A DNA stretch of 64,000 bases. Origin: Ornithinicoccus hortensis. GTDB taxonomy: Bacteria; Actinomycetota; Actinomycetes; Actinomycetales; Dermatophilaceae. Of the stretch, positions 1-64,000 are shown piece after piece; the first letter of the stretch is position 1; the number at the start of each line of letters is the position of its first letter. The stretch is from contig NZ_VFOP01000001.1 in NCBI RefSeq assembly GCF_006716185.1, forward strand, positions 1,116,001-1,180,000, given 5' to 3'. The translations under genes were made by a program, and so were the position numbers. The notes under the pieces were generated by a model that did not search any database, was not told the DNA's origin, and worked only from the letters and a program-made list of their open reading frames with translations.

Positions 1-1201
1 CGTCCAGCTCGGTCACCGCCGACTGGAGACGCTCCAGCACCTCCGGACGCACGGCCAGCCGGCTGGCCCCCTGCAGTTGCAGGCCGGTGGCGAACAACCG
101 CTGGATCACCAGGTCGTGCAGGTCCCGGGCGATCCGGTCACGGTCCTCCAGGAGCGCCAGGAGCCGTTGGTCGTTCTCCCGGTCCACCTGGTCCAGCACC
201 AGGGTGACCTGCAGCGAGAAGGCCCGCAACAGGTCCTGCCCCTGGGCCTCGCCCATCCCGGCCGGCGGGCGCCAGCCACTCACCACCAGGGCCACGACCT
301 GCCCGGAACGCGGGTGGACCGGGAGGACGGTCGTGCGGTCGCCCCGCGGGGCGGCGTCCGGCGCTGGCGGCGTCGCCGGGTCGGTCAGGTCCACCTGTTC
401 GCCCGTCGCCAGGCAGTGCTCGAGCGCCTCCCGCCGCGCGGCGAGGGACGCGGCGGCATCCGCGCCCGAGGCAGCCAGCACCTGTTGCCGGCCGGTCTCG
501 TCGACGGCCACGACCGCGACCGCGCCCGCTGCCGTGAGGTCGAGCAGGTGGGCGGTCACGGTGGGCAGCAGGACCTCGATGTCGACCTCGCTGAGCAGCT
601 CCCGCAGCACGTCCCAGATGCCCTCCATCACCTGCCGTTGGACGGCGTTGACGGAGCGCTCCTGCAGCGAGTCGATGACCGAGCCCGCGACGAGGGAGAG
701 CCCCTCGACCAGTTGCTCGTCCTCGACGGTGAACGGCTGGCCGTCGGCCTTCTCGGTCAGGTAGAGGTTGCCGTAGACCCGCTCGCCCACCCGCACCGGC
801 ATCCCCAGGAAGGTCCGCATCGGGGGGTGGCCGGGCGGGAAACCGGAGGAGTCCGGTGCCTGGGTCAGGTCGTCCAGGCGCACCGGGCGCGGGTCGTGGA
901 TCAGCCGCCCGAGCAGACCGCGGCCGCGCGGGAAGTCGCCGATCTCCGCCCGTTCCTGCTCGGTGAGGCCGTGCGTGATGAACCGTGCCAACCGGTCCGG
1001 CTCCCGCTCGTCGATCACGCCGAGGGCGCCGTAGCGGGCCCCGGAGGCCTCGCAGGCCAGCACGACGATCCGGTGCAGCACGGCGTCCAGGTCCGTGCCG
1101 GCGCCCAGGTCGTGCACGGCGGTCAGCAGCGTGCCCAGGCGGTGCGCGGTGTCGGAGCCGGGGGCGGGCACCCGGTCGTCCTCTGCGGTGGTGGCGTCCA
1201 C
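1..1201 (-). CDS. GAF-domain sensor histidine kinase, C-terminus cut by window edge
   Basis: Cytoplasmic two-component sensor kinase of the DevS/NarL-like group. About 400 residues are visible from the GTG at 1201. There are two GAF-like domains in tandem (roughly residues 15-165 and 195-335), then the dimerisation/phosphoacceptor helix RDLHDLVIQRLFATG near residue 375, whose H is the expected autophosphorylation site. The HATPase domain lies beyond the window. No membrane segment is seen, so the signal is probably sensed in the cytoplasm by the GAF domains; the ligand is unknown. An in-frame ATG at 1276 is possible, but the 24 codons it adds have low third-position GC and would leave only 39 bp to the divergent gene. 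GTG 1201 has no clear ribosome site, so the start is uncertain. Confidence 0.85.
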   Translation of the reverse strand, partial: MDATTAEDDRVPAPGSDTAHRLGTLLTAVHDLGAGTDLDAVLHRIVVLACEASGARYGALGVIDEREPDRLARFITHGLTEQERAEIGDFPRGRGLLGRLIHDPRPVRLDDLTQAPDSSGFPPGHPPMRTFLGMPVRVGERVYGNLYLTEKADGQPFTVEDEQLVEGLSLVAGSVIDSLQERSVNAVQRQVMEGIWDVLRELLSEVDIEVLLPTVTAHLLDLTAAGAVAVVAVDETGRQQVLAASGADAAASLAARREALEHCLATGEQVDLTDPATPPAPDAAPRGDRTTVLPVHPRSGQVVALVVSGWRPPAGMGEAQGQDLLRAFSLQVTLVLDQVDRENDQRLLALLEDRDRIARDLHDLVIQRLFATGLQLQGASRLAVRPEVLERLQSAVTELD

Positions 1202-1274
1202 CGGATGAACGCTACCGTCGCCGCGCCGGGAGCCGGAAGGACCCTCCGCGGCCGGCGCGACGTACCCTGCTGCC

Positions 1275-1319
1275 ATGAGTCGGGTCCGCGGTCTGCCGCA
1301 CGCCGGGGGCGCACGATGA
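1275..1319 (+). CDS. possible leaderless 14-codon upstream ORF
   Basis: TACCCT at 1263-1268 lies six bases before ATG 1275, the spacing of leaderless actinobacterial promoters. The frame runs 14 codons (starting MSRVRG) and its TGA overlaps the ATG of the membrane protein gene at 1316 as ATGA, which would couple their translation. Seen: spacing and overlap. Inferred: that it is translated. The peptide has no recognisable features. Confidence 0.3.
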   Translation: MSRVRGLPHAGGAR

Positions 1320-2371
1320 CCCCCCGTACCCGCCGACAGCTGGCCGGGGCCTGGGCGATGGTCCCGTTCGCGCTGCTCCTGGTGGGGGCGCGGGTGTGGC
1401 AGCCCCCGGGGGAGCTGCCGACCCGGTGGTCCGGCAGCTCCCCGGACGGCTTCACCGACGGTGGCACGGTGCTGCTCACGACGCTCACCGTGGCCGGCTT
1501 CTGCTCGATCCTGGCCGCGCTCGTCGCCCTGGTGCGGGTGTTCGTCCCGGGGCGGTGGTCCCGCTGGATCGTGGCCCTGTTGGCGACCGTGTCCGGTGCC
1601 GCGGCGGCCGCCTACGGCGTGGGTGCGTGGGCCACGTCGCTGGCCGGTTCGGCGGCAGCGGTCCACCCCTGGTGGGTGGCGCTCGTGGTCGTCCTGGCGG
1701 TGCTGTGCGGTGTCGTCGCGCACCGGGTGCACGGTCTGGAGGTGCCCTCGCGCGCGGAGCTGCTGCACGGCATACCGGAGCGGTCGCGGGTCGTCCCGGT
1801 CACCCGGCCGGACCCGGCGGTCGGTCGAGCGGCCGCGGGGGGCGACGGCGACGAACGGGCACCCGGGGAGTGGACCGGGCGGTCGGCCTCCCGGCTCCTG
1901 GTGGGGCTGAGCATCTACACCGGCCTGGTCTTCGCGGTGTGCGTGGCCCTCCTGCTGTTCGGCGGGCCGCACTACCGGCTGTTGCTGGTCGCCGTGCTGG
2001 TGGTCGGGGTGCCGCTGACCCTCTTCGTGCTGGCCTGGTCACGGGTCCGCGTCGTGGTCGACGCCGGGGGTCTGCGGGTCCGTTCCGAGCGGCTGCCGGT
2101 GACCCTGATGCGGGTGCGCCCCGCCGAGGTGCTCGGCGTCCAGGTGCTGGACGTCGACCCGATGGCCTGGGGCGGCTACGGGCTGCGGGCGACCGCCGGT
2201 GCCACGGCATACATCGTCCACGGGGGTGACGCGCTCGTGGTGCACCGTGCCAACGGCCGGCGGCTCGCCCTCGAGTGCGTCGAGGGCGAGCCGCGGGTCG
2301 GTGCTGCCGTGTTGCTGCGGGTGGCCGGTCAGGCGCTGGCGGACGCGCGCTCCGGCTCGGCGGTCGGCTGA
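1316..2371 (+). CDS. DUF1648-type multi-pass membrane protein with C-terminal PH-like domain
   Basis: Membrane protein of 351 residues. The N-terminal third has the DUF1648-like pattern: one hydrophobic helix, then ELPTRWSGSSPDGF, then further helices. About five to six membrane segments lie between residues 10 and 240. The C-terminal ~110 residues (from VRVVVDAGGLRVRSERLP) form a beta-rich soluble region resembling a PH-like domain. Function is unknown for the family. The start is ATG 1316; the reading frame is open upstream to 77, but there it is only antisense to the kinase gene. Its 3' end overlaps the convergent MMPL gene by 43 bp. Confidence 0.75.
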   Translation: MTPRTRRQLAGAWAMVPFALLLVGARVWQPPGELPTRWSGSSPDGFTDGGTVLLTTLTVAGFCSILAALVALVRVFVPGRWSRWIVALLATVSGAAAAAYGVGAWATSLAGSAAAVHPWWVALVVVLAVLCGVVAHRVHGLEVPSRAELLHGIPERSRVVPVTRPDPAVGRAAAGGDGDERAPGEWTGRSASRLLVGLSIYTGLVFAVCVALLLFGGPHYRLLLVAVLVVGVPLTLFVLAWSRVRVVVDAGGLRVRSERLPVTLMRVRPAEVLGVQVLDVDPMAWGGYGLRATAGATAYIVHGGDALVVHRANGRRLALECVEGEPRVGAAVLLRVAGQALADARSGSAVG

Positions 2372-4899
2372 CCCTGCGCCACCCCGAGGGCGCGCTCCAG
2401 CTTGGCGCCCTCGACGTCGACCTCGGGCAGCAGCCGGTCCAACCATCGGGGGAGGGACCAGGCCCGCTCGCCGAGCAGGCTCAGCACGGCCGGGGTCAGC
2501 GTCATCCGCACCAGGAAGGCGTCGACCAGCACCCCGACCGCGAGGCCCAGACCGATCGGACGGATCATCATCAACTCGGCGAAGGCGAACCCGCCGAACA
2601 CCGAGATCATGATGATCGCCGCCGCGGTGACCACGCGGGCGCTGTGGTTGAAGCCGCTGACCACGGCGCGGCGGGCGTCCTCGCCGTGCACGTGCGCCTC
2701 GCGCATCGCGGTGACCAGGAACACCTGGTAGTCCATGGCCAGCCCGAACAGGACGCCGATCAGCAGGATCGGCAGGAAGCTCAGGATCGGGCCGGGGTCG
2801 TTGACCCCGAAGAACGAGCCGAGCACGCCCCACTGGAAGACCGCCACGACCACCCCGAAGGCGGCGCCGATCGAGAGCAGGAAGCCCGCGGTGGCCAGCA
2901 GCGGCACCAGCACCGACCGGAAGACCAGGAGCATCAGCACGATCGACAGCCCGACGACCACCAGCAGGTAGACCGGCAGGGCGTCGGCCAGCTTCTGTGA
3001 GATGTCGATGTTGGCCACGGTCTGACCGGTCAGGCCCAGCTCCATGTCGTTGTCGGCCCCGATCCGGTCCGCGGCGGAGTCCAGGGACCGGACGAGGTCG
3101 ACCGTCTCCTGCTCGGCGGGACCGCTCTTGGGCACGATCTGGAAGGCCAGGGTCGTGCGGTCGTCGCTGACCCCGAACGGCACGACGTAGCTGGTGCCGT
3201 TCACCTGGGCCAGGTCCTCGCCGATCTCGACCTGCGCGGTCATCAGCGCCGTCTCACCCTCGGCGAGCGGCTCGTCGAGGGTCGCGACCGCGACGATCGG
3301 CCCGTTGGCGCCCGCCCCGAAGTTCTCCCGGGTCAGGTCGTAGGCCTGGTATGCCGTGGTCTCGGCGCCCTCGGACCCGCCGTCGGGCAGCCCGAGCCGC
3401 AGGTCGGTGACCGGGAAGGCGGCGACCGCGACGACGGCGACCACGCCCAGGATGGACAGCCACGGGTGCCGCTGCACGAGCGCGGCCCACCCGCGGGGGG
3501 TCGCCTGCTCCTCGGGGTCCAGGTGCTTGGCCTTGCCCCGGGAGCGGCCGAGCGCGCGGTGGCCCAGCAGGCTGAGAATGGCCGGGGTGAGAGTGATCGC
3601 GACCAGCACCGCGACGACCACGGTGCCCGCGGCGACCAGGCCCATGACGCCCAGGAACGGGACGCCCGTGACGACGAGGGCCGCGAGGGCGATGATCACC
3701 GTCAGCCCGGCGAAGGTCACCGCGTTGCCGGAGGTGCCGTTGGCCAGCGCGATCGAGTCCACCACGCCCATCCCCTGGCGCAGCTGTCCCCGGTGGCGGT
3801 TGATCAGGAACAGTGAGTAGTCGATGCCCACCGCCAGTCCCAGCATCAGGGCCAGGGCGGGCGTCACGGAGTTCATCTGGACGAAGGCGGTCAGGCCCAT
3901 CGCGGCACCGACCCCGACGCCCACCCCCACCAGGGCCATCACCAGCGGGAGACCGGCGACCAGCAGGCCACCGAGCATCACCAGCAGGACGACCGCCGCG
4001 ACGACCAGGCCGACGACCTCCGCCGGGCCCATCACGCTGCTCAGGTCCTGGGTGATCACCTGGCTGTACTCCACGCCCACCCCGGCGTCGTCCAGCTGGC
4101 TGCCGATCTCCTGCAGCTCCTTGCCGGTCTCCGGGTCCAGGTCGGTGGCCTCGCCGTCGAACTGCACCTGGGCCAGCGCCACGGTGTTGTCCTCGTTGAC
4201 GAAGCGGAGCCCGTCGCTGAGGGCGCTGAACCGCTGGCCCAGCGCCAGGCTCTCCCGCCCCTTGTCGATCTCCTGCTGCGCGGAGTCGAGTTCGTCGCGG
4301 CCGGCGTCCAGCTCGGCCTGGCCATCGGTCAGCTGTTGGTCCGCGGCGTCCAGCTCTGCCTCGGCCTGGGCCACCATGTCGGCGGGCAGCTGGTCCCGGT
4401 TGGCCTCGAGCTGCTCGCGGCCGGACTCCCACTGGGCGCGGCCCGCATCGATCTCGGCCTGTCCCGCGGCGAGGTCCTCCCGCCCCTTGTCGATCTCGGC
4501 CTGGCCGTCGTCCAGGTCCGCGGTGCCGGACTTGAGATCCTCGGCGCCGGCGTCGATGTCGTCCTGCGTGGCGAACGGGTCGACGACGTCCGCGACCCCG
4601 TCGACGTCGCGCCACTCCTCCAGGACCGTGGCGATCGCCTGGCGCTGGGCGTCGTCGAAGCCGTCCTCGCTGGTGAACACGACCGGGCCCATGGCTCCCG
4701 CGGCCTCGGGTATCTCCTGCTTGAGGTCCTCCAGGACGGTCTGGAACCGGCTGTCCGGCATGGTGAACTCGTTGGTCAGCGGCTTCATGAACACCGCGGC
4801 GGAGGTGCCCGCGGCGGCGATGATCACGATCCAGGCCGTGAGGGTGCGCCACGGGTGCTGGGCGCACCAACGTCCGAGGCGGTGCAGGAGGGATGCCAC
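2329..4899 (-). CDS. MMPL/RND-family exporter
   Basis: Inner-membrane exporter of 856 residues with the two-fold MMPL architecture of about 12 membrane helices. The first helix (WRTLTAWIVIIAAAGTSAAV) is followed by a large extracellular loop, residues ~35-270. The paired transmembrane signatures GIDYSLFLINRHR (first half) and AMDYQVFLVTAMRE (second half) are present. The loop carries degenerate 11-residue repeats of the type DxGQAEIDKGRxx that should form a coiled coil. The start is GTG 4899 with AAAGGA about seven bases upstream. It lies 115 bp downstream of the TetR gene on the same strand and is probably co-transcribed with it and repressed by it. Substrate unknown: a lipid, siderophore or drug is possible. 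Confidence 0.92.
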   Translation of the reverse strand: MASLLHRLGRWCAQHPWRTLTAWIVIIAAAGTSAAVFMKPLTNEFTMPDSRFQTVLEDLKQEIPEAAGAMGPVVFTSEDGFDDAQRQAIATVLEEWRDVDGVADVVDPFATQDDIDAGAEDLKSGTADLDDGQAEIDKGREDLAAGQAEIDAGRAQWESGREQLEANRDQLPADMVAQAEAELDAADQQLTDGQAELDAGRDELDSAQQEIDKGRESLALGQRFSALSDGLRFVNEDNTVALAQVQFDGEATDLDPETGKELQEIGSQLDDAGVGVEYSQVITQDLSSVMGPAEVVGLVVAAVVLLVMLGGLLVAGLPLVMALVGVGVGVGAAMGLTAFVQMNSVTPALALMLGLAVGIDYSLFLINRHRGQLRQGMGVVDSIALANGTSGNAVTFAGLTVIIALAALVVTGVPFLGVMGLVAAGTVVVAVLVAITLTPAILSLLGHRALGRSRGKAKHLDPEEQATPRGWAALVQRHPWLSILGVVAVVAVAAFPVTDLRLGLPDGGSEGAETTAYQAYDLTRENFGAGANGPIVAVATLDEPLAEGETALMTAQVEIGEDLAQVNGTSYVVPFGVSDDRTTLAFQIVPKSGPAEQETVDLVRSLDSAADRIGADNDMELGLTGQTVANIDISQKLADALPVYLLVVVGLSIVLMLLVFRSVLVPLLATAGFLLSIGAAFGVVVAVFQWGVLGSFFGVNDPGPILSFLPILLIGVLFGLAMDYQVFLVTAMREAHVHGEDARRAVVSGFNHSARVVTAAAIIMISVFGGFAFAELMMIRPIGLGLAVGVLVDAFLVRMTLTPAVLSLLGERAWSLPRWLDRLLPEVDVEGAKLERALGVAQGQPTAEPERASASA

Positions 4900-5638: not shown

Positions 5639-5644
5639 GGGTCG

Positions 5645-8330: not shown

Positions 8331-10210
8331 TCGGTGACCCGTTCGTATGTTTCCAGGACGGCTTTGTGCAGGACCTCGGCCAGGTCGGTGGCGTTGAACG
8401 GCAGCCCGCGCACCGCGGTGTGGGACCGGACGTCGACCAGGTAGGTGCCGCGCAACAGCAGGGCCAGCTGGCCCAGGTTCATCTCCGGCACGATCACGGT
8501 GTCGTAGCTGCGCAGGACCTGCTCGAGGTTGGCGGGGAAGGGGTTGAGGTGGCGCAGGTGGGCCTGGGCGATGTGGGTGCCGGTCGTGCGGACCAGGCGG
8601 GCCGCGGCGGCGATCGGGCCGTAAGTCGAGCCCCAGCCCAGGACCAGGACCCGGGCCTGCCCGCTGGGGTCCTCGACGGTGACCGGGGGCAGCGTGTCGG
8701 CGATCCTGGCGATCTTGGCCGCGCGCAACCGCACCATCGTGTCGTGGTTGTCCGGGTCGTAGGAGATGTTGCCGGTGACGTCGGCCTTCTCGATCCCGCC
8801 GATGCGGTGCTCCAACCCGGCGGTGCCCGGGACGGCCCACGGCCGGGCGAGCGTGGTCTCGTCGCGCAGGAACGGGTGGAACACCGGCTGGCCGGCGTCG
8901 TCGGTTCCGTTCGGGGCGGTCGCGAACTGCACGGTCAGGTCCGGCAGGTCCGACACCTGCGGGATCAGCCACGGCTCGGACCCGTTGGCCAGGTACCCGT
9001 CGGAGAGCACGATGACCGGGGTGCGGTAGGTGGTCGCGATCCGGACCGCCTCCAGCGCGACGTCGAAACAGTCCGAGGGCGACCTCGCGGCGAGCACCGC
9101 GACCGGTGACTCCCCGTTGCGGCCGTGCAACGCCTGGAGCAGGTCGGCCTGCTCGGTCTTGGTCGGCAGCCCGGTCGAGGGGCCGCCCCGCTGGATGTCG
9201 ATCACGACCAACGGCAACTCGGTGGCCACCGCCAAGCCGATCGTCTCCGACTTCAGCGCCAACCCCGGTCCGGAGGTCGTGGTCACCCCGAGCGCCCCGC
9301 CGAACGAGGCGCCCAGCGCCATCCCGACCGCGGCGATCTCGTCCTCGGCCTGCAGGGTGGTCACCTCGTACCGCTTCAGCGCGGCCAGCGCGTGCAGCAC
9401 GTCCGAGGCCGGGGTGATCGGGTAGGAGCCCAGCACCACCGGCAGCCCGGACCTGTGCCCGGCCGTGACCAGGCCCAGGGCCATGGCCTGGTTCCCGGTG
9501 ATCGTCCGGTAGGTGCCCGGCGGCATCGGTGCCGGGCCGACCTCGAACCGGATCGCGAAGTCCTCGGTGGTCTCGCCGTAGTTCCAACCCGCCCGCAACG
9601 CCGTGAGGTTGGCCTCCAGCACCTCCGGCTCGGTGGCGAACTTGGCCCGCAGGTAGGTCTCGGTCCCGTCCAACGGGCGCGAGTACATCCAGGACAACAA
9701 CCCCAGGGCCAACATGTTCTTGGCCCGTTCCTTCTCCTTGCGGGTCAACCCGAACTCGGCCAGCGCCTGCACCGTGATCGAGGTCAGCCCGACCTCGTGC
9801 ACGTGCCAGGAGTCCAACGACCCGTCCTCCAGGGGCGAGACGGCATACCCCACCTTGGACAGGTTCCGCTTGGAGAACTCGTCGGTGTTCACGATGACCG
9901 TCCCACCGCGCGGCACGTCACCCAGGTTGGCCTTCAACGCCGCAGGGTTCATCGCGACCAGGACATCCGGACGGTCGCCCGGGGTCAGCACGTCATGGTC
10001 GGCGAACTGGACCTGGAAGCTGGACACCCCCGGCAACGTGCCGGCCGGGGCCCGGATCTCCGCCGGGAAGTTGGGCAGCGTGGACAGGTCGTTGCCCAGG
10101 CCCGCGGTCTCGGAGGTGAACCGGTCACCCGTCAACTGCATCCCATCACCAGAATCACCGGCGAACCGGATCACCACCCGGCCCAACCGCTGCAACGGCT
10201 TGACACTCAT
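8327..10210 (-). CDS. korA: 2-oxoglutarate:ferredoxin oxidoreductase, alpha subunit (gamma-alpha fusion)
   Basis: Subunit of 627 residues. The gamma domain comes first (VVIRFAGDSGDGMQLTGDRF, residues ~9-200), followed by the alpha/pyrimidine-binding domain (GNQAMALGLVTAG, LGSYPITPASDVLH, then TTSGPGLALKSETIGLAV). With KorB it forms the CoA-dependent enzyme that can serve as an oxygen-tolerant TCA-cycle bypass. The start is ATG 10210 (MSVKPLQRLG), chosen because homology begins directly after it. The frame is open to a GTG at 10285, but the extra 25 residues look non-coding and would cover a small hairpin. It lies close to the nuo genes (see findings). Confidence 0.95.
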   Translation of the reverse strand: MSVKPLQRLGRVVIRFAGDSGDGMQLTGDRFTSETAGLGNDLSTLPNFPAEIRAPAGTLPGVSSFQVQFADHDVLTPGDRPDVLVAMNPAALKANLGDVPRGGTVIVNTDEFSKRNLSKVGYAVSPLEDGSLDSWHVHEVGLTSITVQALAEFGLTRKEKERAKNMLALGLLSWMYSRPLDGTETYLRAKFATEPEVLEANLTALRAGWNYGETTEDFAIRFEVGPAPMPPGTYRTITGNQAMALGLVTAGHRSGLPVVLGSYPITPASDVLHALAALKRYEVTTLQAEDEIAAVGMALGASFGGALGVTTTSGPGLALKSETIGLAVATELPLVVIDIQRGGPSTGLPTKTEQADLLQALHGRNGESPVAVLAARSPSDCFDVALEAVRIATTYRTPVIVLSDGYLANGSEPWLIPQVSDLPDLTVQFATAPNGTDDAGQPVFHPFLRDETTLARPWAVPGTAGLEHRIGGIEKADVTGNISYDPDNHDTMVRLRAAKIARIADTLPPVTVEDPSGQARVLVLGWGSTYGPIAAAARLVRTTGTHIAQAHLRHLNPFPANLEQVLRSYDTVIVPEMNLGQLALLLRGTYLVDVRSHTAVRGLPFNATDLAEVLHKAVLETYERVTE

Positions 10211-12350: not shown

Positions 12351-12958
12351 TGACCGTCGACCTGCCCGAGCCGCGGGTCGGGCCGGCCGCGGACAAGGCG
12401 CCGGCCGCCGTGCGCGTGGTGCTGAACTGGGGTCGGAAGTACTCCCTGTGGGTGTTCAACTTCGGCCTGGCCTGCTGCGCGATCGAGTTCATCGCCGCGT
12501 CGATGGCCCGGCACGACTTCATCCGCCTGGGCGTCATCCCGTTCGCCCCCGGCCCGCGCCAGTCCGACCTGATGGTCGTCTCCGGCACGGTCACCGACAA
12601 GATGGCGCCCGCGATCCGGCGCCTCTACGAGCAGATGCCCGAGCCGAAGTACGTCATCTCCTTCGGCGCCTGCTCCAACTCCGGCGGCCCCTACTGGGAC
12701 TCCTACTCGGTGACCAAGGGGGTCGACCAGATCATCCCGGTCGACGTCTACGTGCCCGGGTGCCCGCCCCGGCCGGAGGCGCTGCTCGCCGGGATCGTGA
12801 AGCTCCAGGAGCAGATCTCCGCGGAACGCCCGGGCCGGGCCCGGGCGGGGCTGCGGCCCCGTCCGTATGCCGAGGTGCCGGTCACCGCGGCAGAGGTCAC
12901 CCGGGACCTGGTCGAGCCGCCCACGGCGGAGAAGCAGGACACCGGGGAGGGCTCGTGA
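12350..12958 (+). CDS. nuoB: NADH-quinone oxidoreductase subunit B
   Basis: Peripheral-arm subunit of 202 residues holding cluster N2. The ligands are visible: adjacent Cys in GLACCAIEF (residues ~41-42), Cys in [11 protein letters not shown], and [13 protein letters not shown]2 is the last cluster before quinone, so this subunit is expected to be functional. Compared with common NuoB it has a ~40-residue C-terminal extension. The start overlaps nuoA (TGATG) and the stop overlaps nuoC (GTGA). Confidence 0.95.
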
Positions 12959-18447: not shown

Positions 18448-19043
18448 CCGAGCAGGAGGTCCGCGCCGGGGGCGCCGAGCCACCCGGCCTGCTGGGCTCG
18501 GTGAAGGCGCTCGGCAAGGGCATGGCGACCACCGCCAGGGTGCTCGCCCGCAAGCCGCACACGACGCAGTACCCCCACGTCGAGCCGGACCTGCCGGAGC
18601 GCTCCCACGGTGTCATCGCCCTGTTGGAGAGCAACTGCACCTCCTGCATGCTCTGCGCGCGGGAGTGCCCCGACTGGTGCATCTACATCGACTCGCACAA
18701 GGAGACGACCGAGCCCGGGCCGGAGGGCGGGCGGGCCCGCTCGCACAACGTGCTGGACCGCTTCGACATCGACTACTCGCTGTGCATGTACTGCGGGATC
18801 TGCATCGAGGTGTGCCCGTTCGACGCGCTCTTCTGGGCGCCGGACTTCGCGTATGCCGAGGGAGACATCCGCAACCTGCTGCACGACAAGGACCGGCTCG
18901 AGGGCTGGATGGAGCGGGTCCCGGAGGCCGCGCTGCCCGAGGGCGGGCGAGGGGGCCGAGCAGCCGCCGCGGCGGCGAAGGCCGCGGCCGAGGCCGGCCC
19001 GGTGACGACGGAGCAGACGGAGCCCGGGCGGGGGGCCGAGTGA
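18444..19043 (+). CDS. nuoI: NADH-quinone oxidoreductase subunit I
   Basis: Ferredoxin-like subunit of 199 residues with two [4Fe-4S] motifs, [12 protein letters not shown] (from ~residue 65) and [12 protein letters not shown] (from ~114), clusters N6a and N6b. The C-terminal ~45 residues are Ala/Gly/Glu-rich and look disordered. In a complex without NuoEFG this is the likely entry point for electrons from ferredoxin (inference). Overlaps nuoH and nuoJ by 4 bp each. Confidence 0.95.
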
Positions 19044-32043: not shown

Positions 32044-32172
32044 GACCGGTCCCTCCTGGGTGTCTGTGGGCGGGACCCGATCGTATGCCGTGTGCCTGCC
32101 CGGGAGTCGACCGCCCGTTGCGGGCGGTTGCGCGGAACCCTCGGCGCCGCTGCGCGACGCCGTCGCCTCGTT

Positions 32173-32220: not shown

Positions 32221-32306
32221 GGCAGGTTGTCCGAGCGGCCAATGGAAGCGGACTGTAAATCCGTCGGCGTATGCCTACGCAGGTTCGAATCCTGCACCTG
32301 CCACCA
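32221..32306 (+). tRNA. tRNA-Tyr (GTA)
   Basis: Acceptor GGCAGGT pairs with ACCTGCC (32296-32302), discriminator A, and CCA is encoded at 32304-32306. The anticodon loop contains GTA (ACTGTAAAT). The long variable arm (CGTCGGCGTATGCCTACG) makes it a class II tRNA, as expected for bacterial tRNA-Tyr. The T loop TTCGAAT is normal. The variable arm contains one copy of the over-represented GTATGCC. Confidence 0.97.
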
Positions 32307-32955: not shown

Positions 32956-33074
32956 CCCGCGGCGCAGGAGGGGCGGGCCACGGCATACGCACGCGATGCC
33001 ATCTGTATGATGATGCGTGTCCATGCATAACTATCGACTCCGTGGAGTCCCGCCCCACCTGCGCGAGGTAGCCC

Positions 33075-48563: not shown

Positions 48564-49598
48564 TCAGTCGGCCGGCACCGTGAGCCAGTCGTCCACCGCC
48601 GCGAGCATCTCGGCCTGCCGGTCGGCCGGGGCCCGGGACCCGCGGATGGAGCCGCGCGCCAGGTCGGCCAGCTCGGCATCGGTGAGCTCGTGGTCCTCGC
48701 GGGCGGTCTCGTACTGTGCCGCCAGCCGCGGCCCGAACAGCAACGGGTCGTCCGCGCCCAGCGCGACCCGGGCGCCCGCGTCGAGCAGCTGCCGCAGGGG
48801 CACCTCGGAGAGCTGCCGGTAGACCCCGAGCGCCACGTTGCTGCACGGGCAGACCTCCAGGGTGGTGCCGCGCCGGGCCAGCTCGGCCAGCAGCGCCGGG
48901 TCCTCGGTGCTGCGCACCCCGTGCCCGATCCGGTCCGGGGCCAGGTGCTCCAGGGCGTCGCGCACGTGCTCGGGGCCGAGCAGTTCCCCGGCGTGCGGCA
49001 CGCTGGCCAGGCCCGCCCGCCGGGCGATCGAGAAGGCCTTGGCGAACTCGGCGGTGTCGCCGCGGCGTTCGTCGTTGGACAACCCGAAGCCGACCACCGT
49101 GCCCGGCCCCTCCCCGGCATACCGGGCCGCCAGGCGGGCCAGCGCCCGGGCGTCGAACGGGTGCCGGGTGCGGCTGGCGGCCACCACCACCGCGACCCCC
49201 GTGCCGGTCACCTCGGTCGCCGCGCGCGCCTCGTCCAGCACGATCTCCAGGGTCGGGGTGATGCCGCCGAGGAAGTGGGCGTAGGACGTGGGGTCGACCT
49301 GGATCTCCAACCACCGCGACCCCTCGGCCGCGTCGTCCTCGGCGGCCTCCCGCACGATCCGGCGCATGTCGTCCTCGTCCTGCACGCAGGCCCGTGCCGC
49401 GTCGTAGAGCCGCTGGAACCGGAACCAGCCCCGCTCGTCGGTGGCCGCCCGCAACCGGGGCGGCCAGTCGGCCGTCAACGCGGCCGGCAACCGGAGGCCG
49501 TGCTTGTCGGCCAGGTCCTGCAGGGTCTCGATCCGCATCGAACCGGTGAAGTGCAGGTGCAGATGGGCTTTGGGCAGAGAGTGCACCGGCCGCGTCAT
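48564..49598 (-). CDS. add: adenosine deaminase family protein
   Basis: Zinc hydrolase of 344 residues, TIM barrel, converting (deoxy)adenosine to inosine. Metal ligands and catalytic residues are visible: HLHLHFTGSM at the N-terminus, SVPHAGE (His and Glu), DRIGHG, CPCSNVALG, and ALGADDPLLF (Asp pair). The family also contains adenine deaminase-like members, so adenosine is the likely but not proven substrate. ATG 49598 is divergent from the ABC gene at 49636, only 37 bp apart. Confidence 0.88.
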   Translation of the reverse strand: MTRPVHSLPKAHLHLHFTGSMRIETLQDLADKHGLRLPAALTADWPPRLRAATDERGWFRFQRLYDAARACVQDEDDMRRIVREAAEDDAAEGSRWLEIQVDPTSYAHFLGGITPTLEIVLDEARAATEVTGTGVAVVVAASRTRHPFDARALARLAARYAGEGPGTVVGFGLSNDERRGDTAEFAKAFSIARRAGLASVPHAGELLGPEHVRDALEHLAPDRIGHGVRSTEDPALLAELARRGTTLEVCPCSNVALGVYRQLSEVPLRQLLDAGARVALGADDPLLFGPRLAAQYETAREDHELTDAELADLARGSIRGSRAPADRQAEMLAAVDDWLTVPAD

Positions 49599-52362: not shown

Positions 52363-53069
52363 ACCCCACCATCGCCCGGCTCAGCCTGCAGGCCCTCTAC
52401 GGCCAGCGTCGCGGCATTGTGCTCGCCGTGTTGCCCGGCGTGCTGGTCCTGCTGGCCCTGGTCGTCACGGTCCTCACCGACGGCGCGCTCGCGTTCGGCG
52501 CGGTCGTGGAGGTGCTCGGCTTCGGCCTGATCCTGCCGCTCATCGCGCTGCTGGTGACCACCAGCGTGTTGGGTCCGGAGATCGACGATGGATCGATCGT
52601 CTTCCTGCTGTCCAAGCCGGTCTCCCGGTTCGTGGTCGCGATCAGCAAGTTCCTGGTCGCCGTGCTGGTGACGGTCGTCCTGGGCGCCGGCTCGCTCCTG
52701 GTCGCCGGCCTGCTGCTGGACCCGGGGGAGCCCGGGCGGGCCGTCGGCGTGGCGGTCGGTGGTGCCGTCGCCGGGGCTGCCTACTGCGCGGTCTTCGTCA
52801 TGTTGTCGGCGCTGAACCGGCACGGGATGGTGACCGGCCTGATCTACATCCTGATCTTCGAGTCCGCCCTCGCCCCGCTGCTGACGGGACTGCGCTACGT
52901 GAGCGTCGGGATGTTCGGGCGCCGGATCGCCGAGGCCTTCGACGGCGACCTCACCGCGACCGGCATGGGCCTGACGTATGCCGTGGTGGCCAGCGTCGTC
53001 GTCGTGGTCGGCGGGGTCTTCCTCTCCGGCCAGCGGCTGCGCTCCTTCCAACTGCGCGGCGACGAGTAG
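52359..53069 (+). CDS. ABC-2 type permease (second)
   Basis: Membrane protein of 236 residues with six helices. GPEIDDGSIVFLLSKPVSRF is the permease coupling loop. GTG start overlaps the preceding stop (GTGA). Last gene of the operon; it ends 13 bp from the convergent epimerase gene. Confidence 0.88.
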   Translation: MNPTIARLSLQALYGQRRGIVLAVLPGVLVLLALVVTVLTDGALAFGAVVEVLGFGLILPLIALLVTTSVLGPEIDDGSIVFLLSKPVSRFVVAISKFLVAVLVTVVLGAGSLLVAGLLLDPGEPGRAVGVAVGGAVAGAAYCAVFVMLSALNRHGMVTGLIYILIFESALAPLLTGLRYVSVGMFGRRIAEAFDGDLTATGMGLTYAVVASVVVVVGGVFLSGQRLRSFQLRGDE

Positions 53070-53082: not shown

Positions 53083-54261
53083 TCAGCGCAGCTGCGCGGC
53101 GAGACCACGCAGCGGGTCCAGTCGGGCCAGCAGGGTGGCCTGGTAGGCGTGGTAGACGTCCGGCTTGCCGGACCAGGTGACGGCCGTGGGGCGGTTGTCC
53201 GCGTCGAGCTCGTGGTGCCAGCTTCCACCTTCCCGGTCGACCAGGACGTCCTCGACGAACGCCCACCAGCGGCGGGCGTGCTCGGCATACCGCTCCTCAC
53301 CCGTCCGGGCGTGCAGCGCGGCCGCCGCGGCGACGGCCTCGGCGTGCACCCAGTGCATCCGGCGGCGGACCACCGGGCGGTCCTGCCAGTCCACGGTGTA
53401 GCAGAAGCCGGGGGCCCCGTCGGCCTCCCAGCCGTGTCGCACGCCGACCTCGAACAGGTCGCGCGCGGTGGGGAGCAGCCAGGGCTCGGGCGCCTCGCCG
53501 GCGGCCTCGAGCTGCAGGAGCAGCCGGGCCCACTCCAGGCTGTGGCCGGGGGTCCAGCCGAACGGTCGGAAGGCGTCGTCCGGCCTGTCGCGGTGGTAGT
53601 CCGGCAGGGGTGTCCAGTGCGGGTCGAAGTGCTCGGGCAGCCGGTGCCCGAAGTCACCGGCGAACCCCACGAGGTGGCGCGCGATCGCCAGCGCTGCCTC
53701 GCGGCGTCCCCGGTCGCCGGTGACCTCGGCCACCGCGAGCAGCGCCTCGACGGTGTGCATGCTGGAGTTTGCGCCCCGGTAGGGCTCCGGCTCACCGAGG
53801 TCCCGCGGGTAGGAGTCGATCACCAGCCCGGCCCCGTCGAGGAAGTGGCGCTCGAAGGTCTGCCACGACCGAGCCAGCAGCTCGTCGGCGCCCTCGGTGC
53901 CGGCCGCGACGGCGCTGGAGGCGGCCAGCAGCACGAAGGCATGGTCGTAGGCCTGCTTCCCGGTCCCCACCGGCCGGCCCCGCAGGTCCACCGACGACAG
54001 CCAGCCGCCCGGCCCCCGGTCGCGCAGCGGGCCGTCGGTCAGCGCCCGGACGCCGCCCCGGGCCAGCCGGGCGGCGTCGGCGTCACCCTGCAGTGCGGCG
54101 AGGGAGAAGACGTGCACCATCCGGCAGGTCACCCACAGGTGCACCGCGCGGTCCGGGTCCGTGCGGCCGCTCCCGTCCAGCCAGCCGAAACCCAGCCCCT
54201 CGACATACGAGGCCCGGGCGAAGTCGACCAACCGGCGCCCCTCGACGGCGAGGTCGATCAC
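53083..54261 (-). CDS. AGE-family sugar epimerase/isomerase
   Basis: Protein of 392 residues with the (alpha/alpha)6 barrel of N-acylglucosamine 2-epimerase and mannose isomerase. Visible: RAVHLWVTCRMVHVFSLAAL, KQAYDHAFVLLAASS, YRGANSSMHTVEALLAVAEV, FGWTPGHSLEWARLLLQLE (catalytic His), and RMHWVHAEAVAAAAAL (second His). Absence of glycan-specific loops leaves mannose/fructose isomerase or aldose 2-epimerase as likely activities. GTG 54261 overlaps the permease stop, so it metabolises the imported sugar. Confidence 0.88.
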   Translation of the reverse strand: MIDLAVEGRRLVDFARASYVEGLGFGWLDGSGRTDPDRAVHLWVTCRMVHVFSLAALQGDADAARLARGGVRALTDGPLRDRGPGGWLSSVDLRGRPVGTGKQAYDHAFVLLAASSAVAAGTEGADELLARSWQTFERHFLDGAGLVIDSYPRDLGEPEPYRGANSSMHTVEALLAVAEVTGDRGRREAALAIARHLVGFAGDFGHRLPEHFDPHWTPLPDYHRDRPDDAFRPFGWTPGHSLEWARLLLQLEAAGEAPEPWLLPTARDLFEVGVRHGWEADGAPGFCYTVDWQDRPVVRRRMHWVHAEAVAAAAALHARTGEERYAEHARRWWAFVEDVLVDREGGSWHHELDADNRPTAVTWSGKPDVYHAYQATLLARLDPLRGLAAQLR

Positions 54262-55133
54262 CCCTTCACCGACCCCGCCATCAGCCCGCCGACGAACCAC
54301 CGGCCCAGCAGGATGTAGACCACCAGCGTGGGTACCGAGGCGATGAGCGCCCCCGCCATGCTGGCCGAGTAGTCCTGCAGCTGACCGGAGGCCAGGAAGT
54401 TCAGCGCGATGGTGACCGGGCCGTTGCGGGAGTTGGAGAAGAACAGCGCGAACAGGTAGTCGTTCCAAGCCGAGGTGAACTGCCAGATCAGGACGACCAC
54501 GAAGGCCGGGCCCGACAGCGGCAGCACGATCGACCCGAAGGTGCGCAGCATGCCGGCGCCGTCCACCCGCGCGGCCTCCATCAGCTCGTCGGGGACGCCC
54601 GCGTAGTAGTTGCGGAAGATCAGCGTGGTGATCGGGATGCCGTAGGCGACGTGCAGCACGATCAGGCTGGGGACCCCGGAGGGCACGCCGAGGCCCTGCA
54701 TCAGCTGGATCAGCGGGATCATCACGGCCTGGTAGGGGATGAACATCCCGAACAGCAGCAGGGTGAACACCAGGTCGGCGCCCGGGAAGCGCCAGCGGGC
54801 CAGCACGAACCCGTTCATCGCCCCGAGGAAGGAGGAGATCACCGCCGCCGGGATGACCATGGCGAAGGTGCGGCCCATCGAGGGCAGCAGCAGCTCCCAG
54901 GCGCGCGCCCAGCCGGCGGTACTCCACTCGGTCGGGGGCAGCCAGGCTCGCGCCGGGGTGGCGTCGCCCAGGCCCTTGAAGCTGGTGACCAGGAGCACGT
55001 ATGCCGGGACGAGGACCACGACGACGAAGAACAGCAGGAGGGTGATCCGGGCGATGCCCCACCCGCGCCGGGGAGCGTGTGCCGGGGGCGCGGCCTCGAC
55101 GGGTGTGGTCAGCTCGGTCGTCGGAGCGCTCAT
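54258..55133 (-). CDS. carbohydrate ABC transporter permease, MalG-type
   Basis: Permease of 291 residues with six helices. The EAA loop is EAARVDGAGMLRTFGSIVLP, coupling to the ATPase. The N-terminal tail is Pro/Thr-rich. It forms the import pore with the MalF-type partner encoded upstream (4-bp overlap, ATGA). No ATPase gene is in the operon, as is common in actinobacteria that use a shared MsiK-like ATPase. Confidence 0.93.
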   Translation of the reverse strand: MSAPTTELTTPVEAAPPAHAPRRGWGIARITLLLFFVVVVLVPAYVLLVTSFKGLGDATPARAWLPPTEWSTAGWARAWELLLPSMGRTFAMVIPAAVISSFLGAMNGFVLARWRFPGADLVFTLLLFGMFIPYQAVMIPLIQLMQGLGVPSGVPSLIVLHVAYGIPITTLIFRNYYAGVPDELMEAARVDGAGMLRTFGSIVLPLSGPAFVVVLIWQFTSAWNDYLFALFFSNSRNGPVTIALNFLASGQLQDYSASMAGALIASVPTLVVYILLGRWFVGGLMAGSVKG

Positions 55134-57470: not shown

Positions 57471-58649
57471 ATGGACCAGTCGGACGGAGGGGCGCTCGGG
57501 CGGCTGCGCGCGACCAACCGGGAACTGCTGGTGGGCCTGGTGGAGGGTGCGGGCCGGCTCAGTCGGAGCGAGTTGACGCGGCGCAGCGGGCTGTCCCGGT
57601 CGACCGTGTCCGGCCTGGTCAAGGAGCTGCTGGCGGACGAGGTGCTGGTCGAGCACGAGGACCGGGGCACCGCCCACGGCGGGGGCAGCGGTCGGCCGCC
57701 GATCCTGCTCGGCCTCCGGGAGTCCCCGGGCGTGGTGGTGGGGATCGACGTTGGACACCGGCACGTGCGGATCGGGCTGGCCGGTCTGGACGGCACCGTC
57801 CGGGACGAAGAACGCTTCGACATGGACGTCGACGAGACACCCGATGACACCCTCGACCGGCTGGAGGAGGTGTACCGCGGGTTGCTGGACGCGGCGGGCG
57901 CCTCCGGCGCGGACGTGCGGGCCGTGGCCCTCGGTCTACCGGGGCCGGTCGACCTCGAGGGGCGGATGACCTCCTCGATCCTGCCCCGCTGGCGGGGCCA
58001 CACGCCCGCCGTGGAGCTGGAGCCCCGGCTCGGGATCCGCCCGACCGTGGACAACGACGCGCACATGGGGACGGCCGGGGAGGTGACCTTCGGCGCCGCC
58101 CGGGGAGTCGCCGACCTGATCTACGTGAAGGCGGCGACCGGGTTGGGGGCCGGCATCGTCGTGGACGGGCGGCTGGTCCGCGGCGGCACCGGGATCGCCG
58201 GCGAGATCGGGCACGTCCAGGTGGACGAGAGCGGCCGGGTATGCCGGTGCGGCAGCCGGGGGTGCCTGGAGACCGAGGTCGGCGCCCGGCGGCTCGTGGA
58301 GACCCTGCAGACGGCCCACCACGAGCGGCTCACCGTCGACTCCGTGCTCGCCCTGGAGACCGAGGGCGACGCGGGCGTCGCCCGGGTGCTCGGGGATGCC
58401 GGCCGGGCGATCGGCCGGGTGCTGGCCGACCTGTGCAACGTGCTGAATCCGCAACGCATCGTGGTCGGCGGCTCGCTCGGCGCCAGCACCGCCCTCCTCG
58501 GCGGGATCCGGGAGGCGGTCGACCGGTATGCCCAGCCCAACGCCGCCGACGCGGTGTCGGTGGTGCCGGGCGAGCTCGGCGAGCGCGCCGAGCTGATGGG
58601 CGCCCTCGCCACGGCGCTGGCACAGCAGCGGTCCGCGCTGCTGCGCTGA
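57471..58649 (+). CDS. ROK-family transcriptional regulator
   Basis: Regulator of 392 residues. Winged helix: LSRSELTRRSGLSRSTVSGL (residues ~28-48). The ROK kinase-like fold has VGIDVGHRHVRIGLAGLDG, the GTGIAGEIGHVQVD motif with the sugar-site Glu-His, and the zinc cluster CRCGSRGCLE. ROK regulators respond to sugars and control adjacent transport operons, as the position here suggests. Confidence 0.93.
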   Translation: MDQSDGGALGRLRATNRELLVGLVEGAGRLSRSELTRRSGLSRSTVSGLVKELLADEVLVEHEDRGTAHGGGSGRPPILLGLRESPGVVVGIDVGHRHVRIGLAGLDGTVRDEERFDMDVDETPDDTLDRLEEVYRGLLDAAGASGADVRAVALGLPGPVDLEGRMTSSILPRWRGHTPAVELEPRLGIRPTVDNDAHMGTAGEVTFGAARGVADLIYVKAATGLGAGIVVDGRLVRGGTGIAGEIGHVQVDESGRVCRCGSRGCLETEVGARRLVETLQTAHHERLTVDSVLALETEGDAGVARVLGDAGRAIGRVLADLCNVLNPQRIVVGGSLGASTALLGGIREAVDRYAQPNAADAVSVVPGELGERAELMGALATALAQQRSALLR

Positions 58650-58679: not shown

Positions 58680-59888
58680 TCAGGCGAAGAGCTGCTGGAT
58701 CCGCCCGACGCCCTCGGCCAGGTCGGTGTCGCCCAGGGCGTAGGACAGCCGCAGGTAGCCACTCGGGCCGAAGGCCTCGCCGGGCACCACGGCCACCTCC
58801 ACCTCGTCGAGGATGAGCTCGGCGAGCTCGGCCGAGGTCTGCGGGGTACGGCCCCGGACCTCGCGCCCGAGCAGGCCCGCGACGCTGGGGTAGGCGTAGA
58901 ACGCGCCCCGTGGGGTCGGGCACTCGACACCGTCGATCGCGTTCAGCATCTCCACGATGGTGGCGCGGCGCCGGTCGAAGGCCGTCCGCATCTCCTCGAC
59001 AGCCTCCAGCGAGCCCTGCAAGGCGGCGATCGCGGCGCGCTGGGACACGTTGGCCACGTTGGAGGTGGCGTGCGACTGCAGGTTGGTGGCGGCCTTGATG
59101 ACGTCCGTCGGCCCCACCATCCAGCCCACCCGCCAGCCGGTCATCGCGTAGGTCTTGGCCACGCCGTTGAGCACGACGCAGGTGTCCGCCAGCTCGGGCA
59201 CCACGACCGGCATCGACGGCGCGGTCGCCCCGTCGTAGAGCAAGTGCTCGTAGATCTCGTCGGTGACCACCCAGATGCCGTGCTCGAGCGCCCAGCGGCC
59301 GATCGCCTCCACCTGCTCGGGCGGGTAGACCGCGCCGGTCGGGTTGGACGGGGAGCAGAAGAGCAGCACCTTGGTCTGCGCGGTGCGGGCCGCCTCGAGC
59401 TGGTCGACGGTCACCAGGTAGCCCTGGTCGGCGCCGGCGAAGACCTCCACCGGGGTGCCGCCGGCCAACCGGATCGCCTCGGGGTAGGTGGTCCAGTAGG
59501 GCGCCGGGAGCAGCACCTCGTCGCCCGGGTCCAGCAGCGCCGCGAAGGTGTTGTAGACCGCCTGCTTCCCCCCGTTGGTGACGAGCACGTTGGCCGGCTC
59601 CACGGCATACCCGGAGTCCCGCAGGGTCTTCTCCACGATCGCCTTCTTCAGGTCGGGCAGGCCGCCCGCGGGGGAGTAGCGGTGGTTGACCGGGTCCTGC
59701 GCGGCCGCCACGGCCGCAGCCACCACGTAGTCGGGCGTGGGAAAATCGGGCTCACCGGCCCCGAAACCGATGACCGGACGGCCCTGTGCCTTCAGGCCCT
59801 TGGCCTTGGCGTCGACGGCCAGCGTCGCGGACTCGGCGATGGAGCCGATCCGGCTGGAGATGCGTGCTTTGTCGTTGCTCTGGGTCAC
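58680..59888 (-). CDS. aspartate/aromatic-type PLP aminotransferase (class I)
   Basis: PLP enzyme of 402 residues. Seen: [37 protein letters not shown] (cofactor phosphate), [10 protein letters not shown], the Asp/Tyr in [14 protein letters not shown], the Schiff-base Lys in [19 protein letters not shown], and the carboxylate-binding Arg in SGYLRLSYA. Family Ib of aspartate aminotransferases; some members act as prephenate aminotransferase. GTG 59888 is preceded by TTGAAT with a six-base gap. It commonly lies upstream of tRNA-Trp/secE in actinobacteria. Confidence 0.9.
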
Positions 59889-61869: not shown

Positions 61870-61984
61870 TCCCCGCACGGGGTCTGCCGGCCGCCCACCG
61901 GGGCGGCACGGCATACCCCTCCCGTGGCAGGGCCTGCGCTGGCCCGTTCACCACACCTCCACCCACGCAACGCAAGGAGCAACC

Positions 61985-62937: not shown

Positions 62938-62969
62938 CCACTGCCCGGGCCGGCCGACGGGCGTGCGGG

Positions 62970-63929
62970 TCAGCCGACGGGCGTGAGGGTCGCCTCTCCG
63001 CGCAACACGGCCAGCACGTTGTCCGCGGCGAGCTGGGCCATGGCGGTTCGCGTCTCCACCGTGGCCGAGCCCAGGTGCGGGGCCAGGGCCACGTTCTCCA
63101 GCTCCAGCAGCCCCTCGTGCACCTCGGGCTCCTGCTCGAAGACGTCCAGCCCGGCCCCGGCGATGGTGCCGGCCCGCAGCGCCTGCACCAGGGCCTCCTC
63201 GTCGACGATGGGGCCGCGGGCGGAGTTGATCAGGTAGGCGGTGTCCTTCATCAGGGCCAGCTGCTCGGCCCCGATCAGGTGGTGGGTGGCCTCGGAGTAG
63301 GGGCAGTGCAGCGACACCACGTCCGAGGTCCGCAGCAACTCCGCCAGGTCCAGGCGGGTGGCGCCCAGCTCCTCGGCCAGTTCCGGGGCGCACGGCCTGC
63401 GGGAGTGGTAGACGACGTCCATCCCGAAGGCCCGGGCCCGGCGGGCCATCGCCGCGCCGATCCCCCCGAGCCCGACGATCCCGATCGTCTTGCCCTGCAG
63501 CCCCTGGCCGAGCAGGTAGAACATGCCCCACTTCCAGGGCGTGCCTGAGCGGATGATCCGCTCGCCCTCACCCAGCCGGCGGCTCACCATGAGCAACAGC
63601 CCGAAGGCGGTGTCGGCGGTGGCGTCGGTGAGCACGTCCGGGGTGTTGGTGACCAGCACGTCCCGCTCCCGGCAGGCGTCCACGTCGACGTTGTTGTAGC
63701 CCACCGCGACGTTCGCGACCACCTTCAGCTGGGGGCCGGCGGCGTCGAGCAGTTCGGCGTCGACCGACTCGGTGAGCAGCGTGACCAGGGCGTCGGCACC
63801 CCGCACCATCTCCAGGAGCGCCTCCCGGGAGACGGCGTCCTCCTCGTCGTGCGCGACCACGTCGTGCTCCGCGGCCAGCGAGTCGACGGCCTGCCGCGGG
63901 ATCCGGCCGGTCACCACCACGCGGCTCAT
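62970..63929 (-). CDS. D-isomer-specific 2-hydroxyacid dehydrogenase (glyoxylate/hydroxypyruvate reductase-like)
   Basis: NAD(P)-dependent enzyme of 319 residues. NVAVGYNNVDVDACRERDVL is in the substrate domain; the Rossmann motif is GIVGLGGIGAAMARRARAFG with the Arg in HSRRPCAP. Catalytic residues are Arg in NSARGPIVDEEAL, Glu in DVFEQEPEVHEGLL, and His in LAPHLGSATVETR. The pattern is that of glyoxylate reductases. ATG 63929 has GGAG five bases upstream and overlaps the stop of the upstream gene (ATGA); an in-frame GTG at 63944 is less likely. Confidence 0.9.
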   Translation of the reverse strand: MSRVVVTGRIPRQAVDSLAAEHDVVAHDEEDAVSREALLEMVRGADALVTLLTESVDAELLDAAGPQLKVVANVAVGYNNVDVDACRERDVLVTNTPDVLTDATADTAFGLLLMVSRRLGEGERIIRSGTPWKWGMFYLLGQGLQGKTIGIVGLGGIGAAMARRARAFGMDVVYHSRRPCAPELAEELGATRLDLAELLRTSDVVSLHCPYSEATHHLIGAEQLALMKDTAYLINSARGPIVDEEALVQALRAGTIAGAGLDVFEQEPEVHEGLLELENVALAPHLGSATVETRTAMAQLAADNVLAVLRGEATLTPVG

Positions 63930-64000
63930 GCCGACTCCACCCACTCGCCGAGCCGGCCCAGGCCCTCCCGGATCGCGGATTCGTCGATGCCGGAGTAGGC
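63926..64000 (-). CDS. C-terminal end of a gene, probably a PLP aminotransferase, cut by window edge
   Basis: Only 24 codons and a TGA are visible: AYSGIDESAIREGLGRLGEW, then VESA. The pattern x-Y-S-G-I-x-E-x-x-I-x-E-G-L-x-R-L resembles the last helix of class I/II aminotransferases, including the MocR type. The stop overlaps the dehydrogenase start, so the two are co-translated. The identity is a guess from a short stretch. Confidence 0.45.
   Translation of the reverse strand, partial: AYSGIDESAIREGLGRLGEWVESA

Follow-up and report, generated by a model that had tools for sequence, protein, structure and literature searches.

The octamer CGGCATAC is strongly over-represented in the 64,000-nucleotide stretch of the Ornithinicoccus hortensis genome analysed here (the window; G000:C1:1116001-1180000), and it rather probably works like a DNA uptake sequence (DUS). 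We write 'works like' and not 'is', as a receptor of the ComP type, the kind known for DUS, is unlikely here. The reading is suggested by several features, among them the spacing of the copies on each strand and the replacement of the word by another one, a dialect, in a related clade. In our best reading, this would be the first DUS-like system suggested outside Neisseriaceae and Pasteurellaceae. An earlier sequence-only reading of the window had named a DNA uptake signal among several candidate meanings, and of these it is the best supported, by same-strand spacing and dialect; the set of interpretations as a whole is partly supported.

Abundance of the octamer

In the window, we counted 36 copies of CGGCATAC on both strands, where 100 dinucleotide shuffles gave 0.80 on average and an order-2 Markov model, under which its z is the highest among all octamers, predicted 1.0. 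The genome of the window (G000) is a single contig of 3,935,242 bases with ~72% G+C. It carries 926 forward and 939 reverse copies, 1,865 in total or 474 per Mb, while the reversed control word occurs 123 times forward and 126 times in reverse; as the control partly overlaps the motif (CGGCATACGGC holds both words), these 249 copies exaggerate the background. A spread sample of the same genome (864 kb; 40 stretches and the window) contained 408 copies. The enrichment claimed by the sequence-only reading is thus confirmed. Its counts of GGCATAC (20) and GTATGCC (19) were identical in our recount, its estimate of about 36 extensions to the octamer is exactly 36 on both strands, and its 19 extensions to ACGGCATAC were also found again; the over-representation indeed exceeds tenfold, and the two strands are used equally across the genome. 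Three of the checks that it had proposed were made: the genome-wide count is far over that of the control word, no strand or origin-terminus bias is seen (see below), and the word is abundant in relatives. The octamer is usually preceded by C two letters upstream and by A, T or G one letter upstream.

Same-strand copies avoid each other

The copies are spaced differently within and between strands. Same-strand pairs closer than 750 bp are depleted in G000 (29 vs 69.8 expected) and in two other genomes, G201 (28 vs 74.4) and G124 (15 vs 38.6), whereas opposite-strand pairs at 40-750 bp are close to expectation (83 vs 71.4, 72 vs 74.7, and 39 vs 40.2, respectively). Hence same-strand copies repel each other within ~750 bp, and opposite-strand copies are placed randomly. 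When strand labels were shuffled at fixed positions, counts as low at 40-750 bp were obtained in 0, 0, and 5 of 2000 shuffles for G000, G201, and G124; with labels shuffled after removal of close inverted pairs, the numbers were 0, 0, and 4 of 1000. In the latter test at 40-300 bp, there were 9 same-strand and 34 opposite-strand pairs in G000 (0 of 1000 shuffles as low), 5 and 22 in G201 (1 of 1000), and, with a weaker effect, 7 and 17 in G124 (71 of 1000). Other over-represented words tested in these genomes were mostly neutral or showed a same-strand excess.

The same effect is visible at individual sites. Summed over the three genomes, Ala-Tyr contexts that could hold the word do so in 29 of 68 cases with a same-strand copy within 750 bp and in 159 of 213 cases without one, while an opposite-strand neighbour causes no drop (91 of 132 with, 97 of 149 without). 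A same-strand neighbour matters less in Tyr-Ala contexts (69 of 90 filled with one vs 244 of 289 without). The pressure on the word acts on each strand separately.

As a control, we applied the same analysis to the DUS decamer of N. gonorrhoeae (450 kb, 378 copies). Its same-strand pairs are depleted at 40-300 bp (18 vs 43.0), and with close inverted pairs removed, 7 same-strand and 26 opposite-strand pairs remain at this distance (0 of 1000 shuffles as low). In N. gonorrhoeae and E. coli, two control words were either neutral or in excess on the same strand. We found no mention of this avoidance of same-strand DUS neighbours at 40-300 bp in the available portions of the DUS literature cited here.

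Enrichment is independent of codon usage

The sequence-only reading had held that the word is not codon-driven, and non-coding DNA is indeed enriched as well: 760 kb contain 50 non-coding copies vs 2.6 expected and 313 coding copies vs 9.7. Within genes, TAT-GCC occupies 198 of 240 fitting Tyr-Ala contexts, in agreement with the earlier remark that TAT codons concentrate around the motif, and GCA-TAC occupies 98 of 145 fitting Ala-Tyr contexts. Within the first 464 kb sample, 117 of 129 nnG-Tyr-GCC-Gnn contexts have TAT as the Tyr codon. Where the base preceding Tyr-GCC is other than G, the share drops to 12 of 71 and 11 of 59, and before codons not starting with GC, TAT makes up 0-15% of Tyr codons. 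In the same sample, the Ala codon in nCG-Ala-Tyr(TAC) is GCA in 52 cases, GCC in 22, and GCG in 2, while elsewhere the numbers are 14, 192, and 9. Given the non-coding enrichment and the context-specific occupancy, codon or dipeptide usage is rejected as the cause.

Near-miss words are most enriched when the CGG part is varied (CGACATAC, 65 vs 6.6 expected; CTGCATAC, 24 vs 5.8; CCGCATAC, 36 vs 11.6), which marks CATAC as the stricter part of the word and CGG as the more tolerant one. In the two main coding frames of the 464 kb sample, GTATGCCG is found 117 times and CGGCATAC 52 times. According to the accessible text of PMC2346458, one orientation is commoner in genes in known uptake sequences, and those of Pasteurellaceae are also biased to gene ends; of these traits, CGGCATAC shares the genic orientation skew and lacks the gene-end bias.

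Distribution among relatives and a second word

We counted the word in 159 genomes drawn evenly from a larger group, the family, which we take to be Dermatophilaceae (Intrasporangiaceae), and in a class sample of 296 genomes. Within the family, 87 of 159 genomes have more than 400 copies of CGGCATAC, 13 have 151-400, and 59 have at most 150; the highest counts are 4,724 (G037), 4,205 (G153), 4,065 (G130), and 3,986 (G201). The 290 class genomes outside the family have at most 386 copies, the maximum being in G237 (7.5 Mb, ~51 per Mb). The enrichment is characteristic of a single family of actinobacteria. Rich and poor genomes occur within one genus: in g1, ten drawn members have 404-1,901 copies while G022 has 50; in g49, G128 has 19 vs 1,062 in G085 and 3,681 in G154; in g59, G181 has 37 and four other members have 1,251-1,660. 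At a single 21 kb locus, the word is found 10 times in Terrabacter tumescens, 11 times in Intrasporangium oryzae, and 7 times in Leekyejoonella antrihumi, and is absent from Janibacter anophelis and Phycicoccus jejuensis. The database records NZ_CP119142.1 and NZ_OL790696.1 are chromosome-sized, yet labelled as plasmids.

In the motif-poor genome G182, another word, CCCCCTTCG, is strongly over-represented (55 vs 3.6 expected in 160 kb), and its core CCCCCTTC is enriched outside coding DNA (19 vs 1.5) as well as within it (46 vs 6.1). Thirteen of the 159 genomes (3 of genus g61 and 10 of g62) have 797-1,939 copies of CCCCCTTCG, and the remaining 146 have at most 80; all 13 hold at most 41 copies of CGGCATAC. 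At the 21 kb locus, Janibacter anophelis has 10 copies of CCCCCTTCG in the place of CGGCATAC. The use of CCCCCTTCG instead of CGGCATAC in a related clade is a dialect switch. The second word shows the same spacing at short distances, with 1 same-strand and 14 opposite-strand pairs at 40-300 bp (0 of 1000 shuffles as low). Among users of CGGCATAC, the preceding base also varies, being A or T in G000, mostly G in G201, and A or G in G124; genus-mates of G000 have A before and C after the word.

Words in two further genomes are candidate dialects. In G128, the motif-poor genus-mate of the rich G085 and G154, CGCCGTAC / GTACGGCG and GGCGTCGTAC are over-represented and possibly represent a related dialect, although the abundance of the GTACGGCG-like word may reflect codon usage. 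In G181, the excess of GGTCTACG extends to non-coding DNA, but the word shows no clear repulsion. One 20 kb stretch of G020 has an excess of the palindrome TTGGCCAA, with 12 copies over the two strands where 1.6 would be expected.

Inverted pairs and low-GC regions

Inverted pairs of CGGCATAC closer than 40 bp are in excess in G201 (13 vs 4.3 expected) and G124 (5 vs 2.3), and also in genus-mates. According to the simple gene caller that we used, all 14 pairs in the relatives are intergenic, as are 11 of the 13 in G201 and 4 of the 5 in G124; two G201 pairs belong to both the relatives' and the G201 sets. Several close inverted pairs in the relatives form part of longer perfect hairpins. For the Neisseria DUS, 82 inverted pairs closer than 40 bp were found vs 6.7 expected.

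The word is scarce in three low-GC stretches of the G000 sample (L111, L112, and L171; 60 kb), which hold 5 copies, the other 804 kb holding 403. These stretches (62-66% GC, at positions 1, 40001, and 1800001 of G000) are possibly acquired DNA, judging from GC content only.

Copies in the window

All 36 window copies of CGGCATAC are listed below as exact matches, with frames from the simple gene caller.

1768..1775, + strand, no gene called
2205..2212, + strand, no gene called
3349..3356, - strand, Ala-Tyr frame
9841..9848, + strand, Tyr-Ala frame, - strand gene
12865..12872, - strand, Tyr-Ala frame
18851..18858, - strand, Tyr-Ala frame
20185..20192, + strand, Ala-Tyr frame
22289..22296, + strand, Arg-His-Thr frame
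23191..23198, - strand, Tyr-Ala frame
23284..23291, - strand, Tyr-Ala frame
26108..26115, + strand, Ala-Tyr frame
27266..27273, + strand, Ala-Tyr frame
27516..27523, - strand, Tyr-Ala frame
29488..29495, + strand, Tyr-Ala frame, - strand gene
32083..32090, - strand, intergenic
32681..32688, + strand, Ala-Tyr frame
32981..32988, + strand, intergenic
34541..34548, + strand, no gene called
36333..36340, - strand, Tyr-Ala frame
37451..37458, - strand, Ala-Tyr frame; Terrabacter tumescens has the same word when aligned
37555..37562, + strand, Tyr-Ala frame, - strand gene; Terrabacter tumescens has the same word when aligned
39398..39405, - strand, Tyr-Ala frame, thiolase gene
40259..40266, - strand, Tyr-Ala frame, thiolase gene
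40872..40879, + strand, Ala-Tyr frame, 3-oxoacyl-ACP reductase gene
44535..44542, - strand, Tyr-Ala frame
44658..44665, - strand, Tyr-Ala frame
45957..45964, - strand, Tyr-Ala frame, murB
47439..47446, + strand, Tyr-Ala frame, - strand gene
48342..48349, + strand, Tyr-Ala frame, - strand gene
49115..49122, + strand, Tyr-Ala frame, adenosine deaminase gene; motif-poor genus-mate G022 has CGGCGTAC when aligned
52976..52983, - strand, Tyr-Ala frame
53283..53290, + strand, Tyr-Ala frame, - strand gene
54999..55006, - strand, Ala-Tyr frame
58239..58246, - strand, Val-Cys-Arg frame, ROK-like gene
59603..59610, + strand, Tyr-Ala frame, aminotransferase-like gene; genus-mate G015 has the same word when aligned
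61909..61916, + strand, intergenic, ahead of a gene with a product matching rplA (L1)

Thirty of the 36 copies are genic, 20 in the Tyr-Ala frame (nnG TAT GCC Gnn) and 8 in the Ala-Tyr frame (nCG GCA TAC). The sequence-only reading had placed copies in all three frames; several frames do exist, yet 28 of the 30 genic copies sit in only two, the other two being Arg-His-Thr at 22289 and Val-Cys-Arg at 58239. The latter frame had been predicted by that reading and was verified, as was the intergenic location of the copies at 32083, 32982, and 61910, while its frames at 1769 and 34542 were not confirmed, since the gene caller placed no gene there. Its copy in the tRNA-Tyr gene at 32269 is present as the 7-mer GTATGCC; the next letter is T, so it is not an octamer. 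This tRNA-Tyr lies at 32221-32306 of the window, with the 7-mer, one letter short of the octamer, in the variable arm. Of the 36 window sites, 3 could be mapped onto G022, 3 onto G015, 5 onto Terrabacter, and 4 onto Janibacter.

Competence genes and a possible mechanism

Genes for DNA uptake are nearly universal in the family. Of the 159 genomes, 155 have ComEC; a ComEA-type domain was matched in 154, with 80 of them passing the curated cut-off, and a Tad-type ATPase in 157, with 145 passing it. In Micrococcus luteus, of the same phylum, Tad pili serve transformation, as stated in the part of PMC4322843 available to us, and the near-universal ComEA-type, ComEC, and Tad-type genes resemble this Tad/Flp system. 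No mention of an uptake sequence was found in two papers on M. luteus (PMC4322843, PMC8467076).

In the mechanism that we propose, a surface DNA receptor, probably within a Tad/Flp competence pilus, would bind the word in extracellular DNA, and the bound DNA would be passed to ComEA and ComEC and then recombined. It is possible that the putative receptor is a Tad pilin. Alleles bearing the word would be taken up more often, and either uptake drive or a selective advantage of exchange with kin would spread the word. If one copy per strand per ~1 kb suffices, an extra same-strand copy would add little.

Several observations weigh against an uptake sequence. The known receptor ComP belongs to type IVa pili, for which PilM serves as a marker. 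As PilM is found in only 5 of 159 genomes, G000 not being one of them, a receptor of the known type, a ComP-like type IV minor pilin, is unlikely. Moreover, no gene among ComEC, PilM, RecC, ComEA, and the Tad ATPase correlates by eye with word abundance in the 159 genomes; ComEC, ComEA, and the Tad ATPase are equally common in motif-poor ones, so this near-universal kit does not explain which genomes carry the word. Gene content near the tad and com loci likewise fails to split rich from poor genomes, in a comparison of 14 tad stretches (the G022 contig being only 3.8 kb) and 9 usable com stretches (with the G181 locus left out). No clear replacement word was seen in the motif-poor G022, G141, G117, and G116. 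A bias to gene ends was not seen in eight tests, the single nominally significant one being for GTATGCCG in G201 (44:22 toward the upstream half, P 0.009), and close inverted pairs are rare in the window's own genome (2 vs 4.1 expected). For CCCCCTTCG, the same-strand avoidance is not significant at 40-750 bp (335 of 2000 and 149 of 1000 shuffles), and opposite-strand pairs at 300-750 bp are also short (7 vs 17.4).

The Neisseria control is not a perfect match, either. Same-strand DUS pairs reach expectation at 300-750 bp (71 vs 73.9), so that the repulsion is shorter-ranged than the ~750 bp of CGGCATAC; at 40-750 bp with close inverted pairs removed, it is not significant (126 of 1000). Opposite-strand DUS pairs are slightly short as well, 36 vs 43.3 at 40-300 bp and 63 vs 74.4 at 300-750 bp (99 vs 117.7 at 40-750 bp). 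Finally, the orientation of a site within a fragment is irrelevant for uptake according to the available part of PMC1939737, which would leave a strand-specific repulsion unexplained even for true uptake sequences.

Alternative explanations

The main rival to an uptake sequence, unlikely in our judgement, is a Chi-like recombination-control site read by a helicase-nuclease (AdnAB, RecBCD, or a relative) on one strand at breaks. Reading of one strand in one direction would make same-strand copies alone redundant, as observed. A RecC match was obtained in 66 of the 159 genomes, that of the window included, and passed the cut-off in 63; the presence of RecC is patchy, and within genus g56 only G201 is among the matches listed. 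Like CGGCATAC, Chi is a directional, over-represented octamer, and the accessible text of PMC8022716 describes Chi motifs as over-represented in core DNA. However, the same text describes Chi sites as polarised to the leading strand, and CGGCATAC has no replication polarity (214 leading vs 189 lagging copies in the sampled stretches, with the origin and terminus set by GC skew). In E. coli, the one species compared (800 kb, 170 Chi copies), the spacing is reversed: same-strand Chi pairs closer than 750 bp are in excess (34 vs 19.2 expected), pairs at 40-750 bp are 33 same-strand and 9 opposite-strand (26 of 1000 shuffles as high), and neighbours form same-strand runs (100 same-strand, 54 opposite). 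This same-strand clustering of Chi below 750 bp exceeds the prediction from per-stretch densities. In addition, many motif-rich genomes, G033, G034, and G037 among them, have no RecC match. On these grounds, the Chi-like site, also a candidate of the sequence-only reading, is disfavoured.

Somewhat less probable again is that the word is bound or modified by an intracellular protein, such as a nucleoid protein, a chromosome organiser, or a methyltransferase, or is a defence self-mark. Gain, loss, and dialects restricted to one family would fit a changing specificity, but direction-independent reading of double-stranded DNA would not make only same-strand neighbours redundant. Besides, restriction motifs are usually avoided rather than enriched.

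A mutational or repair bias, for instance deamination at methylated CGGCGTAC leaving CGGCATAC, is very improbable. For Tyr-Ala contexts, a C to T change is indeed what is needed, turning TAC into TAT, and the motif-poor relative has CGGCGTAC at site 49115. In Ala-Tyr contexts, however, the codon to be changed into GCA is mostly GCC (89% of the Ala codons preceding TAC elsewhere), which takes a C to A transversion, so one type of change cannot yield both. In addition, the orthologous alternatives at variable sites among relatives (CGGCCTAC, CGGCACAC, CGGCATCC, and others) differ at several positions; here, only clear columns of the multi-genome alignment were used, as G128, G031, G201, and G127 aligned poorly (~56% identity) with many gaps. 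Deamination is therefore rejected as the cause. Nor does the broader mutational bias named by the sequence-only reading fit, since Ala-Tyr occupancy falls with a same-strand, and not with an opposite-strand, copy within 750 bp.

Equally little weight is given to the repulsion being mere avoidance of recombinogenic short direct repeats, with another cause for the enrichment: this would affect same-strand copies only, but most other over-represented words, the two control words, and Chi are neutral or in same-strand excess. The segregation words KOPS and AIMS are disfavoured by the lack of origin-terminus polarity.

Comparison with known systems and significance

Among the closest known systems is the DUS of Neisseriaceae. 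Both words are short and asymmetric, occur about once per 1-2 kb on both strands, and have dialects (available parts of PMC2397512 and PMC12616744). They also share same-strand avoidance at 40-300 bp, and may share intergenic inverted pairs (for CGGCATAC, in the relatives) and scarcity in acquired-looking DNA. What is available of PMC2397512 further describes a DUS spacing near the conversion-tract length, inverted pairs that serve as terminators, and a lack of DUS in genes gained recently. On the other hand, the words are unrelated, the CGGCATAC core has 8 letters vs 10-12, the CGGCATAC family lacks type IVa pili by the PilM marker, G000 has few inverted pairs, and the repulsion reaches farther. 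The uptake signal sequence of Pasteurellaceae is a different word in a different phylum. HIP1 (GCGATCGC) of cyanobacteria is likewise an octamer over-represented genome-wide; it is palindromic, and CGGCATAC is not. By title or the start of the abstract, no report on actinobacterial uptake sequences was found in the literature, with most subscription journals and preprints outside its coverage, and no match listed for the word and its complement was relevant by title.

With at least two dialects (CGGCATAC and CCCCCTTCG) and a putative receptor in a Tad/Flp pilus, the chances are about even that this is a third independent origin of sequence-marked exchange, and the first among Gram-positive bacteria. 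With the strand-specific spacing test, uptake-type and Chi-type words can be told apart at little cost; if the reading is true, a shortage of same-strand neighbours over part of a kilobase would serve as a general fingerprint for uptake systems in any genome. A system in another phylum, with another pilus type and with dialects among genera, would allow one to test selfish uptake drive against kin recognition. It would also offer a route to a new receptor, and might render environmental actinobacteria genetically tractable.

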